Positions 3,547-9,960 of a stretch of DNA of 13,698 nt are shown here, one piece after another. Origin of the DNA: Thermoanaerobaculia bacterium (GTDB lineage Bacteria > Acidobacteriota > Thermoanaerobaculia > Multivoradales > UBA5704); assembly GCA_025937035.1 (NCBI GenBank), contig JAICSG010000035.1:1-13698 (forward strand), given 5' to 3'. Position 1 is the stretch's first letter, and every line of letters starts with the position of its first letter. The position numbers and the translations under genes were made by a program. The notes under the pieces were generated by a model. The model worked only from the letters and a program-made list of their open reading frames with translations. It was not told where the DNA came from and did not search any database.

Positions 3547-4200
3547 GGCCGACACCACCACCGCCTGCATGCCGATCGAGGCCAGCTCGCGGCGCAGCGA
3601 CTCGGCCTGGCCGCGGTCGTCGAAGGCGCCGATCTGGACGCGGCTCCAGGTGCCGTCCGAATCCACCACCGCCTCGGGATAGAGCCGCACGACCTCACGC
3701 TGGAGGGCGATCGCCCGCTCGGGCTCGCTGAAGGCGCCCACCTGGACGGTGAAGCGCGGCGGTGCGCCGGTCTCGGGCACCAGGTAGAGCTCGACGCTGG
3801 CGGTGCCCGGTCCCACCACCCCCACCTCCCTGGCGGCGGCGTAGGAGAGGTCGATGATGCGGTTCTTCGAGTAGGGGCCGCGGTCGTTGACCCGCACGAT
3901 CACCTCGCGGCCGGTACGGGTGTTGCGTACACCGATCTTCGAGCCGAAGGGGAGTGAGGGGTGGGCGGCCGTGAAGGCGTTCATGTCGTAACGCTCGCCG
4001 CTGGCGGTCATCTTGCCGTTGAACTTGGGACCGTACCAGGAGGCGATCCCCCGTTCGAGCGGCACGCCGAGCGTGGGAGGAGCTACGGTGGGCTGGCGGT
4101 TGCCGGAGCAGCCGACGGCCAGCAGCTCGACGAGGAGGAAGGCTGAAAGAGCGACTCGAGAGAGAACAACGACGAGCCGGGAGTCTTTCCGTGGGCGCAT
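3541..4200 (-). CDS. rlpA: RlpA-like septal/peptidoglycan lipoprotein with SPOR domain
   Basis: This 219-residue protein resembles RlpA, a double-psi beta-barrel protein that cleaves or binds denuded peptidoglycan at division sites. The start at 4200 was chosen because it puts a basic n-region and hydrophobic stretch first, ending in the lipobox-like 'LAVGC' (C31), and because GGAGG lies 10 nt upstream. The family-defining stretch begins 'GIASWYGPKFNGKMTASGE' (51-69). H80 and D106 (in 'VRVNDRGPY') match the conserved RlpA His and Asp. A SPOR domain (about 149-219), with 'FTVQVGAFSEPERA' and a second 'VQIGAF', should target it to septal glycan. One oddity is a Glu (E25) inside the signal-peptide core. 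It converges on the hybrid kinase with a 6-nt gap. Confidence 0.9.
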   Translation of the reverse strand: MRPRKDSRLVVVLSRVALSAFLLVELLAVGCSGNRQPTVAPPTLGVPLERGIASWYGPKFNGKMTASGERYDMNAFTAAHPSLPFGSKIGVRNTRTGREVIVRVNDRGPYSKNRIIDLSYAAAREVGVVGPGTASVELYLVPETGAPPRFTVQVGAFSEPERAIALQREVVRLYPEAVVDSDGTWSRVQIGAFDDRGQAESLRRELASIGMQAVVVSAR

Positions 4201-7208: not shown

Positions 7209-8144
7209 ATGCCCCGTCACCTGATCTCGATCCACGACCTGACCGCCGCGGAGGTGGCCGGTCTGTTCCGTCTCGCCGCGGACGTCAAGGCGAACCGCTC
7301 GAAGTACGAGAACCACATGCACCGCAAGACGCTGGGGATGATCTTCGAGAAGTCCTCGACCCGCACCCGCGTCAGCTTCGAGGCGGGGATGGCCCAGATG
7401 GGCGGCCAAGCCCTCTTCCTCTCCAGCCGCGACATCCAGCTCGGCCGCGGCGAGCCGATCTCGGACACCGCCCAGGTGCTCTCCCGCTACATCGACGGCA
7501 TCATGGCTCGCACCTTCGCCCACCAGACGGTGACCGACCTCGCCAAATACGGCACGATCCCGGTGATCAACGGCCTCACCGACGACCTCCACCCCTGCCA
7601 GGGGCTCACCGACTACTTCACCCTGATGGAGGTCTTCGGCGGCCTCGACGCCCTGCGCGGCCGCAAGCTCGCCTACGTGGGGGATGGCAACAACATGGCC
7701 CATTCCCTGATGCTCGGCGCCACGAAGGTGGGGATGGACGTGGCGATCGCCTCGCCCAAGGGCTATGAGGTGAAGGAGCGCTACGCCGGCCTCGCTCGCC
7801 AGGACGCTCAAGCGGCCGGGACGAAGGTGATCCTGACCAACGATCCGGTGGAGGCGGTGAAGGACGCCTCGGCGGTCTACACCGACGTCTGGGCCTCGAT
7901 GGGGCAGGAGTCCGAGCAGCAGGAGCGGGTGAAGGCCTTCAAGGGCTTCACGGTCGATTCGGCGCTGATGTCCCACGCCCGCAAGGAGGCCGTCTTCCTC
8001 CACTGCCTGCCGGCCCACCGCGGCGAGGAGGTCTCCGCCGAGGTCTGCGACGGCCCCCAGAGCCGCATCTTCGACGAGGCCGAGAACCGCCTGCACGTCC
8101 AGAAGGCGATCATGCTGTGGCTGATGGCGGGGGTGGAGATCTAG
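7209..8144 (+). CDS. argF: Ornithine carbamoyltransferase
   Basis: OTC interconverts ornithine plus carbamoyl phosphate with citrulline plus phosphate. This 311-residue protein has the carbamoyl-phosphate loop 'STRTR', the 'HPCQ' motif, the ornithine-loop 'DVWASMGQE' and 'HCLPAHRGEEV', all expected for OTC rather than aspartate carbamoyltransferase. A strong GGAGGAG begins 8 nt before the ATG. Because it follows arcA it could run in the catabolic direction (arcB), using citrulline from ArcA. Sequence alone does not separate anabolic ArgF from catabolic ArcB, so the symbol is a default. The length is that of the shorter ArgF type; catabolic ArcB proteins are commonly longer, about 335 residues. 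Confidence 0.94.
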   Translation: MPRHLISIHDLTAAEVAGLFRLAADVKANRSKYENHMHRKTLGMIFEKSSTRTRVSFEAGMAQMGGQALFLSSRDIQLGRGEPISDTAQVLSRYIDGIMARTFAHQTVTDLAKYGTIPVINGLTDDLHPCQGLTDYFTLMEVFGGLDALRGRKLAYVGDGNNMAHSLMLGATKVGMDVAIASPKGYEVKERYAGLARQDAQAAGTKVILTNDPVEAVKDASAVYTDVWASMGQESEQQERVKAFKGFTVDSALMSHARKEAVFLHCLPAHRGEEVSAEVCDGPQSRIFDEAENRLHVQKAIMLWLMAGVEI

Positions 8145-8192
8145 GGCGCGGATCATGCCGCCAATTGCCCGTCCATCGTCTCTCGGAGTGAG

Positions 8193-8230
8193 GAATATCC
8201 CACCTGCCCGGCCCGGCAGGCGGGATATTC
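8193..8230. repeat. Array unit 1: 16-bp hairpin after argF
   Basis: The arms GAATATCCCACCTGCC (8193-8208) and GGCAGGCGGGATATTC (8215-8230) pair over 16 positions with a single A-C mismatch, which becomes a G-U wobble if transcribed from the minus strand. The loop is 6 nt. It starts 48 nt after the argF stop and lacks a T-tract. It may end or stabilise the argF transcript, or the minus-strand rdgB transcript. Confidence 0.8.
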
Positions 8231-8358
8231 TGGCCGGTATACCGTTTAACTTCCGGAATATGCGGTATGGAGGGCGTAATACGCCGCGTATTTTGGCCGA
8301 CACGCGGTATTTTTAAGAATATATGCCGCGTAATAAGGGAGGCAAGCGGTATTTTGAC

Positions 8359-8400
8359 CGGAATGTACCGCGTGCCTTGGGAGGCACGCGGCATATTCCG
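8359..8400. repeat. Array unit 5: 18-bp hairpin near the rdgB end
   Basis: The arms CGGAATGTACCGCGTGCC (8359-8376) and GGCACGCGGCATATTCCG (8383-8400) pair with one wobble and one mismatch around the loop TTGGGA. The inner 9 bp are perfect. This is the best-preserved copy of the repeat and the best query for a genome search. It lies about 50 nt past the rdgB stop on the minus strand. Confidence 0.8.
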
Positions 8401-8448
8401 CGCGGCGATAGAGATCTGCCTGGAATAGGCGGTATGCTCGCCAGTTGT

Positions 8449-9015
8449 CTACAACGACGCCAGCCGCTTCGCCATCTCCCGCCAAGCCTTCCCCCGGTGG
8501 CTCACCATGCCTTTTTCAGGGCCGGTGAGCTCGGCGAAGGTCAGCTCCGAGCCGTACGGCAGGAAGACCGGATCCCAGCCGAAGCCGTGGGTCCCGCGGC
8601 CAGGAAGGACGAGAGTGCCTTCCGTCCTCCCCTCGGCGACGATCTCGCGGTCTCCATCCTTGTAGAGAAGAAAGCAGTGCGCGGAGGCTTTGGGCTCCTT
8701 CAGGGATAGCGCCGCGCGGGAGAGCCCTTCGGCGCCGACAGCCTGGAGCATCCACTTGACGAGAGGTCCGGGAAAGCCGTTCAGGGCGGCGAGGTCGAGC
8801 CCCGCCTCCTCGACTACCAGGGGACGGCCGACGTGCCGCCACGCCTCTTCCGCCTTGGCCCGCAGGACCTCCAGATAGTCGAGCGACTGGATCTCGGGAA
8901 GATCCACCTCCACGGCTTCGAGGTCTGCTCCCATGGCGAGCCGGGCCTCGGCGATCTTGCCGGCGTTGCCGGTGACGAGGACGAAGGGGTGGGAGTTACT
9001 GGAAGGAGCGGTCAT
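8449..9015 (-). CDS. rdgB: RdgB/ITPA-type non-canonical purine NTP pyrophosphatase
   Basis: This 188-residue Ham1-family enzyme should hydrolyse ITP, dITP and XTP to monophosphates and so keep deaminated purines out of DNA and RNA. Family marks are 'VTGNAGKIAEA' (14-24), 'LNGFPGPLVKWML' (78-90), 'GFGWDPVFLP' and 'SHRGKAW'. The 'GPLVKWML' wording is nearer human ITPA ('GPYIKWFL') than E. coli RdgB. Where most members have an acidic 'EDSG'/'DDSG' motif, this one has 'EEAG' (E69-E70), replacing the conserved Asp by Glu. The ATG at 9015 was chosen over upstream in-frame starts because the domain begins soon after; only a weak GAGAG precedes it. It is convergent with argF across the palindrome array and divergent from the TIR pair. 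Confidence 0.9.
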   Translation of the reverse strand: MTAPSSNSHPFVLVTGNAGKIAEARLAMGADLEAVEVDLPEIQSLDYLEVLRAKAEEAWRHVGRPLVVEEAGLDLAALNGFPGPLVKWMLQAVGAEGLSRAALSLKEPKASAHCFLLYKDGDREIVAEGRTEGTLVLPGRGTHGFGWDPVFLPYGSELTFAELTGPEKGMVSHRGKAWREMAKRLASL

Positions 9016-9055
9016 AGTCTCTCGGCAAGGTACTACGGATTGTCGTTGTCGCGGA

Positions 9056-9078
9056 TTGATGATACCTTGTGCCATCAA
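9056..9078. promoter_or_regulatory. Small inverted repeat between rdgB and the TIR genes
   Basis: TTGATG (9056-9061) and CATCAA (9073-9078) are perfect 6-bp complements separated by 11 nt, in the 99-nt divergent gap. This could be an operator for the TIR pair or rdgB, but an inverted repeat this short is easily expected by chance. I see no good -35/-10 pair for either gene here. Confidence 0.25.
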
Positions 9079-9114: not shown

Positions 9115-9543
9115 GTGGCCCGGGGAGGGTCGAGACGTGGCGCCAAGGAAGAGCGGCCGTATGTGGTCTTCATCAGCCATTCTTCCCGGGATACCTGGAT
9201 CGCCAGGATGATGGCGGAGAAAGTATCCGCTCTCGGAGCTGTGGCTTGGCTCGACGTCAAGGATCTTGAGGGAGGAGACCTCATCAACGCCAAGATCCTC
9301 GAAGGTCTGGATGCCTGTCAGGAGGCGGTGGTGCTAGTCTCTCCCAATAGCGTGGTGTCGCAGTGGGTGGTATTCGAGATCGGAGCCGCCTTGGGACAGC
9401 ACAAGCGGGTCACCCCGATCCTGAACAACGCAAGCTTGGGTGCGATCGCCCCGCTGAAGGAGATCAAGGCCATCGATCTCAACGATTTCGGCCGGTTTTT
9501 GAGCGAGCTCAAGAAGAGAATTCAGAAGGCTTCAGAGGAATGA
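9115..9543 (+). CDS. Small TIR-domain protein, probable NADase
   Basis: This 142-residue protein is almost entirely a TIR domain. The betaA strand and BB-type start is 'YVVFISHSSRDTWIARMMAEKV' in two parts (16-24, 25-37). Then come 'AWLDVKDLEGGD' (44-55) and 'VVLVSPNSVVSQWVVFEIGAAL' (72-93, key residues W84 and E88). The W-x3-E spacing equals W638/E642 of SARM1, where the Glu is catalytic, so NAD+ cleavage is plausible. A GTG start at 9115 follows AGGGGA by 5 nt. G+C is visibly lower than in the neighbours (mid-50s % by eye), suggesting later acquisition. There is no transmembrane, STING, Sir2 or WD partner domain; the partner is the next gene, 3 nt away. The antiphage or signalling role is inference. 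Confidence 0.88.
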   Translation: MARGGSRRGAKEERPYVVFISHSSRDTWIARMMAEKVSALGAVAWLDVKDLEGGDLINAKILEGLDACQEAVVLVSPNSVVSQWVVFEIGAALGQHKRVTPILNNASLGAIAPLKEIKAIDLNDFGRFLSELKKRIQKASEE

Positions 9544-9546
9544 CCT

Positions 9547-9960
9547 ATGTCCTACCAGGTCCTGATCAGCTCGACGCCTAAGGATAGGGATCTCGCCGAG
9601 AACCTCGCCCAGTCCGTCCGGGACACCGGAGCCCTTGTCCTCTCCGTGGAACAAACTCCGACCCGCGGCGAGGCGATCGACTTCGACCTGCGTCGGTTGA
9701 TACGGAAGGCGGACGAGGTCGTCCTCATTCTGACCGACCGGTCTCTCAACAACCCATTTCTGCTACTCGAGATGGGTGCGGCCTTTTCTCTGCGCAAGCG
9801 GTTGATTCCGATCCTGGTCGGCATCGACGAATCCGAGATCCCGCCCCTGATCGCCGAGCTCGGGTATGTGCGGTACGCGAATCTGAGGGGCTATCTCTCC
9901 GAGCTCGAGCAGCGCGTCAGGTCGTCGACCAGTGAGCCCCCGGTCGCGGCGGCCCACTGA
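9547..9960 (+). CDS. TIR-like protein, second gene of the pair
   Basis: This 137-residue protein aligns by eye with its neighbour: 'YQVLISSTPKDRDLAENLAQSV' (3-24, in place of 'YVVFISHSSRD...'), a central acidic region, 'VVLILTDRSLNN' (58-69) and 'FLLLEMGAAF' (71-80). The Glu at the catalytic position is kept (E75), but the Trp four residues before it is F71. This could be a second NADase or nucleoside hydrolase-like TIR, or an inactive partner or scaffold. It starts 3 nt after the upstream stop with AGAGGAA as ribosome binding site, so the two are co-translated. Lower G+C continues here. The stop is 2 nt from the convergent coaE stop. TIR-fold assignment is by pattern, not search. Confidence 0.75.
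   Translation: MSYQVLISSTPKDRDLAENLAQSVRDTGALVLSVEQTPTRGEAIDFDLRRLIRKADEVVLILTDRSLNNPFLLLEMGAAFSLRKRLIPILVGIDESEIPPLIAELGYVRYANLRGYLSELEQRVRSSTSEPPVAAAH

Follow-up and report, generated by a model that had tools for sequence, protein, structure and literature searches.

What is the repeat array that fills the gap between two convergent genes, argF and an rdgB-like gene, in this soil bacterium, and which of its properties is being kept? The original prediction had described phased palindromes whose spacing survives while their sequence drifts. Here, the array was analyzed within the window (the whole stretch of DNA under analysis, 13,698 nucleotides, to which all positions refer), in the genome it comes from (G000), and in related genomes.

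A lattice of alternating half-sites between argF and rdgB

The gap measures 304 bp and is filled by a palindromic repeat array, the unit of which is a 21-bp half-site with the core AATAT-N-CCGC-N-T, repeated in alternating orientation on a 21-bp lattice. The following features were delineated:

7209 to 8144, forward strand: argF (ornithine carbamoyltransferase), convergent neighbor; TIGR00658, 408.3 bits against a cut-off of 280.85
8449 to 9078, reverse strand: rdgB-like gene, convergent neighbor; TIGR00042 at E 4e-33, with 114.4 bits, below the cut-off of 145.35
8149 to 8441, no strand: whole array, 12 of 14 lattice places filled, 8170 and 8401 empty (PWM lattice scan, core positions modulo 42, autocorrelation)
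8191 to 8400, no strand: array core, five 42-bp units or ten alternating half-sites (autocorrelation, half-site cutting)
8193 to 8230, no strand: unit 1, a strong inverted repeat with 89% complementarity between 19-nt arms
8359 to 8400, no strand: unit 5, likewise a strong inverted repeat (89% complementarity between 19-nt arms, 4-nt gap)
8149 to 8169, forward strand: outlying half-site in register, just 3' of the argF stop codon (PWM 7.6; left out of PWM training)
8421 to 8441, reverse strand: outlying half-site, 1 bp off register (PWM 11.1; core at 8429, off by 1 modulo 42)

The original prediction had placed the array at 8191 to 8435 and taken a 42-bp palindrome as its unit. An array does lie there, but it is longer, with the half-site at 8149 in register and the one at 8421 displaced by 1 bp; similarly, the 42-bp register holds, but the quantum is 21 bp, with half-sites that alternate and dyads that lie on the unit junctions too (8274.5, 8316.5, and 8358.5). 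When 21-bp pieces were read on alternate strands, ten half-sites of alternating orientation emerged at 8191, 8212, and onward to 8380. The first two C residues and the last T of the core are present in all ten, and CCGC is intact in eight, while half-sites of the array match one another, on average, at about 11 of the 21 positions. The recurrence of GCGG on one register was confirmed, with five cores at 8220, 8262, 8304, 8346, and 8388. Nine T[ACG]CCGC cores occur in 8145 to 8448; all three on the forward strand share one residue modulo 42, and five of the six on the reverse strand share one residue, the sixth being 1 bp off. Autocorrelation of 8191 to 8437 exceeded 0.36 at lags 21, 42, 63, 84, 105, and 126 only (lags 10 to 129 tested), and its maximum was matched by none of 300 approximately dinucleotide-preserving shuffles. 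Tandem Repeats Finder did not report the window array, even at its lowest score (30).

A protein-coding repeat of 14-residue units would suit a period divisible by 3, and the window array has one frame free of stop codons. Such a repeat is extremely unlikely, as 2 of the 7 family arrays described below lack an open frame, an antisense-frame protein search found no relative at E <= 1, and some arrays of the wider class have lags of 20, 40, 41, 61, or 62.

Strong stems in the outer units

Five hairpin centers 42 bp apart had been proposed. Those at 8211.5 and 8379.5 are strong dyads (17 and 16 of 20 positions complementary), but the middle three are weak: 8253.5 and 8295.5 reach 10 of 20 each, a level attained by 1,181 of 27,316 centers in the window (4%), and 8337.5 falls outside the 20 best dyads listed. 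The arms of the middle three units agree at 9 to 10 of 21 positions, against a mean of 11.25 for different, non-adjacent places. These three units keep the 42-bp register but not the stem, and in the predicted fold of the forward strand they pair at a distance rather than internally.

These observations bear on an RNA element, in which hairpins would act as a bidirectional terminator or as a stabilizer of the transcripts of argF and rdgB. The two genes are convergent, and the predicted fold of each strand is more stable than those of all 200 shuffles (z -6.45 and -5.46), an outcome that an array of inverted sites is expected to give on both strands. Over the five units and both strands, pairs formed in 72.6% of cells in register, against 31% to 50% when slid by 1 to 3 columns. 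The proposed covariance analysis gave a divided answer: paired changes were not in excess over shuffles in the window's own five units, nor at the unit-center stems of 46 units from seven arrays (254 of 1,000 shuffles reached the number of paired cells and 261 that of double changes), whereas 38 junction stems had a modest excess (3 and 4 of 1,000 shuffles as good), these being counts on mutually related arrays and not probabilities. A search for intrinsic terminators, defined by a G/C-rich stem ahead of a T run, gave a single terminator-like site against a shuffle mean of 0.4, and that site is neither of the two strong hairpins; Rfam 15 gave no match at the gathering threshold in the window. 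As the middle units keep no stems, a role as a hairpin-RNA cluster, one of those originally suggested, is not favored, and we consider an RNA element unlikely.

The locus in related genomes

The element is present between argF and rdgB in the window's genome and absent from the matching locus of G001, a genome of the same genus, in which, read by eye, the argF stop abuts the end of rdgB. G001, which also holds the best named argF relative (a soil MAG called Thermoanaerobaculum sp., 83% identity), provided the only matching junction available for comparison; in G003, from another genus of the family, a different sequence lies 3' of argF.

The same neighborhood holds two genes for small TIR-domain proteins (PF13676) at 9115 to 9960 on the forward strand, between the rdgB-like gene and coaE, and the first of these proteins also matches defense models. 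In the matching stretch of G001, rdgB is followed directly by coaE (by eye); next to the array, the two TIR-domain genes may represent a second insertion. Elsewhere, a 21-bp-period array outside the window's array family lies just past argF in Neobacillus terrae (L064:3981-4152).

A small dispersed family

The array very probably belongs to a small, dispersed family of two-turn repeat elements that lie between genes. Searching for the unit in this genome and its relatives, as had been recommended, yielded further copies in G000 (contigs C925 and C632) and in the related genome G002 (C217, C227, C799, C1022, and C1038). With the window array counted, this makes two or three arrays in G000 and, at other loci, at least five in G002, in genomes that are both incomplete and from searches in which the number of scored candidates was capped. 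The uncertainty in G000 concerns C632 and C925, which have a common right end with 17 differences in 177 aligned bases and both touch contig ends; they may be one or two loci. Since other copies exist, the locus is not the lone decayed copy by which a neutral tandem duplication was to be recognized.

Several searches contributed to this set. A first model, R1, with 150 candidates scored per genome, returned the window plus weak matches in several genomes, and G002:C1022, found in this way, is clearly a sister array when read by eye. The window reached 125.6 on an array score derived from its own sequence, against 88.9 for C1022 and 67.4 for C799, with every other locus then compared at -9.0 or below; among the loci examined from the weak matches in other genomes, only two in G002 scored as arrays. 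A motif search identified clusters at 42-bp steps in C217, C227, and C1038 of G002 and in C925 and C632 of G000. A second model, R2, run on 72 genomes of the order, gave matches with E <1e-4 in G000 and G002 only. Its matches at E 0.004 to 0.1 in 14 other genomes included none, among the loci examined, in the top 45 of the unit score, within which arrays reach at least 66.6. Among 396 genomes drawn from the phylum, with G002 taken as not drawn, matches were found in G000 and G430 only, and the latter (E 3.5e-4, the only match in the phylum outside the order) is without a periodic array and reads as a gene. Searches across more than 40 genomes used stricter filters.

Blastn with the array, against its own genome and the 72 genomes of the order, returned only short matches besides the array itself, and the seven of these loci that were read all look like gene sequence. 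In viral contigs, a pattern scan picked out 25 stretches, each containing a single exact match and showing no array within 60 bases on either side, while plasmids yielded two weak matches to the array and phages none. The core motif with one mismatch was commoner than its reversed control in 4 of 4 genomes (83 versus 49 in G001, 67 versus 31 in G003); this excess alone was rejected as proof of arrays, since G001 and G003 show it but R2 found no family array there.

The family members sit in several unrelated gene neighborhoods. Whether they favor the 3' ends of genes was considered, but with so few arrays no such preference is claimed. A protein encoded near C1038 seemed transposase-like at first reading and has no Pfam family. 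Around the gene end that matches the one flanking C217, the stretches in G000, G001, and G003 carry no family array.

Homologous arrays differ mainly by whole half-units

A left flank of about 75 bp and a right end are common to C217, C227, and C925, which therefore look like copies of one longer element. Between C217 and C227, 54 substitutions in 354 core columns are accompanied by one indel of exactly 21 bp; between C217 and C925, 76 substitutions in 315 core columns by an indel of exactly 42 bp, plus one of 4 bp at the last core bases. The comparison of C217 with C1038 (100 substitutions in 331 columns) has five indels of 1 to 2 bp, four of which cancel in pairs. Flank alignments of 64, 112, and 46 columns contain 2 (cancelling), 3, and 4 indels, respectively. 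Judged from these alignments, array length has changed mainly, not only, in 21- or 42-bp steps; short of proof, this points to half-units being gained and lost and to spacing being somewhat constrained.

Stepwise change of this kind could also arise from selfish or neutral amplification, either by a Y1/RAYT-kind transposase or by replication slippage at hairpins, with the 21-bp quantum as the step of the enzyme or of slippage and without benefit to the cell. Unit-wise indels between homologous arrays and the differing positions of arrays in related genomes speak for this, as does the presence of Y1_Tnp (PF01797) genes, with 27 matches in four genomes (3 in G000, 12 in G001, 6 in G002, and 6 in G003). 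Among 13 of these 27 loci that were examined, 3 carry another array of about 20- to 21-bp or 42-bp period, but this is no clear excess over the roughly 1 expected from the survey density, and none of the 13 (two partly masked) carries the window's family. High array scores of L266 and L275 beside Y1_Tnp genes were produced by masked letters and were dropped. Amplification alone also does not predict A/T phasing at one helical turn. It is possible rather than probable, and nearly as likely as an element that is kept for its geometry and wrapped by a protein.

The 3 other arrays were L274:1784-2161 (G000:C489), whose 42-bp inverted units are unrelated in sequence and lie a few hundred bases upstream of a Y1_Tnp gene; L268:1990-2170 (G001:C126), with a period of about 21 bp; and L280 at about 3850-4180 (G002:C717), with a period of about 20 bp. 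At L275 (G002:C1059), the Y1_Tnp gene lies between GGTAGCCCGGG...CCCGGGCTACC palindromes resembling ordinary GTAG-tagged REPs.

Helical phasing of A/T content

In the window's family, A/T-rich blocks recur once per helical turn with G/C-rich blocks between them. The A/T indicator peaks at 10.45-10.55 bp with a power of 21.3-39.1 in 7 of 7 family arrays, which, as members of one family, represent one shared property and not seven independent findings; random sequence averages about 1, and the next peak more than 0.8 bp away has a power of at most 6.7. No 252-bp sliding window exceeded 16 in the G003 sample, among the 16,421 windows of G014 classed as coding or noncoding, or among 16,636 from 20 further genomes of the order. 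Above 16 were one locus of the G000 sample, two of G001, and five of G002, four of these last five being family arrays on contigs chosen because arrays were already known there. In a wedge model, four of the seven arrays, that of the window among them, were predicted to be more curved than all 200 of their mononucleotide shuffles; for the others, 11 (C925), 3 (C1022), and 1 (C799) of 200 shuffles were as curved. A/T content phased at this period makes the DNA helically phased and probably bendable.

Arrays with the same spacing and different sequence

We next consider periodic arrays outside the family. Periodicity was scanned at lags 14-70 in samples of 400 kb from G001, 238 kb from G000, 100 kb from G003, and 259 kb from G002; another 800 kb came from 21 genomes that belong to other families of the order. 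The contigs were ones that earlier searches had listed, mostly as near-matches to the core motif, and the G001 and G003 pieces were cut at round coordinates. G002 was excluded from the class test because it includes contigs chosen for known arrays. In G000, G001, and G003 together, 16 of 22 arrays had lags of 20-21, 40-42, or 60-63, versus 2 of 14 outside the bacterial family in the same order (Fisher p 0.0016, and 0.0016-0.004 across thresholds of 0.54-0.60), corresponding to 21.7 versus 2.5 per Mb (p 0.0004). Because the arrays of G001 and G000 had already been seen when the lag class was defined, both p values err on the optimistic side. G003, sampled after that definition, had 3 of 4 arrays in the class. 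Among 79 loci from diverse bacteria, 3 of 9 arrays fell in it, so the two-turn period is not exclusive to the family. A home-made gene predictor calls some arrays coding, labels that the class test ignores, and some lags that are multiples of 3 may reflect coding repeats, as L338 appears to.

Read by eye, the printed arrays of the wider class differ in sequence; many lack A/T phasing at half their period, which is strong in some only. Finding the same spacing with different sequence in related genomes hints that DNA shape is what matters. One may suppose, with more doubt than confidence, that this bacterial family has a genome-wide class of noncoding arrays set by geometry and not by sequence. 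Such arrays, numbering about 15-23 per Mb sampled, would have in common only a two-turn (20-21 bp) quantum, dyad symmetry, and growth by whole units, and would be candidate shape-read platforms for chromosome wrapping or supercoil handling.

Further individual arrays include a long run of a degenerate 21-bp G/C-rich unit in G003, predicted as coding (L387:4260-4890, contig C91); a second array family in G002, with 21-bp palindromes around the core AGGTCTGCCGCAGACCT (L243:1150-1400 and L244:2230-2460, contigs C858 and C595); and a 20-bp-period array outside the window's array family in an Acidobacteriota MAG (L038:2239-2487).

The sequence diversity of the wider class also bears on an operator or iteron array for one sequence-specific dimeric protein, be it a regulator or a protein of replication or partition. 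The conserved half-site core, found in several members, its alternating orientation, and the whole-turn spacing would all suit such a protein. Against it, members lie in several unrelated gene neighborhoods and the other arrays have only spacing in common; the operator array of the original prediction fits this diversity poorly, and we regard it as very unlikely.

A possible platform for DNA wrapping

The proposal that geometry is kept, in whole helical turns, while sequence drifts gains support from the large indels of 21 or 42 bp, from the phasing in all seven family arrays, and from the 20-21 bp quantum elsewhere. Some constraint on array geometry is rather probable. The best explanation, which we put forward tentatively, is a dispersed element kept for that geometry and wrapped by gyrase or another DNA-bending protein. 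Half-sites of 21 bp that alternate in orientation, and whose number rises and falls mainly through 21- or 42-bp steps, would provide about 300 bp of DNA that, to judge from the A/T phasing, bends the same way at every turn. The array could then serve as a platform for a protein that reads bendability instead of sequence, with DNA gyrase as the first candidate reader and an HU-like protein as the second. In the window, it lies between convergent genes, where transcription supercoils would meet.

Gyrase comes first because its Escherichia coli motif has phased GC content, and because its cleavage is in excess in BIME-2 and enriched downstream of highly transcribed operons, according to the excerpted source (PMC6379681). 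Gyrase-type wrapping of the array is a candidate mechanism and, from sequence features, a somewhat doubtful one. In the same excerpt, the gyrase signal in BIME-2 rises once transcription is stopped (PMC6379681), so that supercoils from neighboring genes need not be involved, and a simple role as a supercoil sink is disfavored.

Bacterial repeats are mostly recognized by their common sequence. If spacing and symmetry are kept instead, standard finders will miss the class: Tandem Repeats Finder passed over this array, and blastn recovered no true second copy of it in its own genome. Arrays kept for geometry would be test objects for the selection of bendable DNA for wrapping by gyrase or nucleoid proteins, and for the amplification of two-turn units.

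Comparison with known systems

Literature searches among open PubMed Central papers turned up no title or opening abstract describing such an array class. CRISPR arrays have near-identical repeats with unique, regular spacers, a pattern from which half-sites agreeing at about 11 of 21 positions depart. A histone-fold protein (PF00808) was found in 0 of 8 genomes, the window's own included.

REPs usually number more than 100 copies per genome, a level not approached by the two or three arrays found in G000 or the at least five in G002. The REP super-families carry a GTAG or CGTC tag, according to the excerpted source (PMC3733652). GTAG can be formed in at most 16 of 49 half-sites, and CGTC, looked for by eye only, was not recognized as a tag. 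The array thereby differs from REPs associated with RAYT (Y1) transposases, as that excerpt presents them, while resembling them in that PF01797 genes are present in the same genomes. The REP-like element of the original prediction thus survives in its architecture and fails on tag and copy number.

The E. coli gyrase motif, as excerpted (PMC6379681), has flanks with 10.75-bp periodic GC content, and thus resembles the array in a helically phased change of G/C content over tens of base pairs. It differs in period (10.75 bp against 10.45-10.55 bp), and it is not known as an array of tandem palindromes.

The closest likeness is to BIMEs, which consist of regularly spaced inverted units of alternating orientation between genes (PMC2817692, in the excerpted part). 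The array has these same features, its units being inverted, regularly spaced, alternating, and extragenic, and as in BIME-2 of E. coli and other bacteria (again by the excerpted descriptions), it occurs in several copies per genome and changes length unit-wise. Unlike BIME-2, it lacks a conserved GTAG tag, occurs in few copies, and is built on a 21-bp lattice, and the genomes that carry it hold sister arrays with the same spacing and other sequence. The element is BIME-like, and it is not a BIME.
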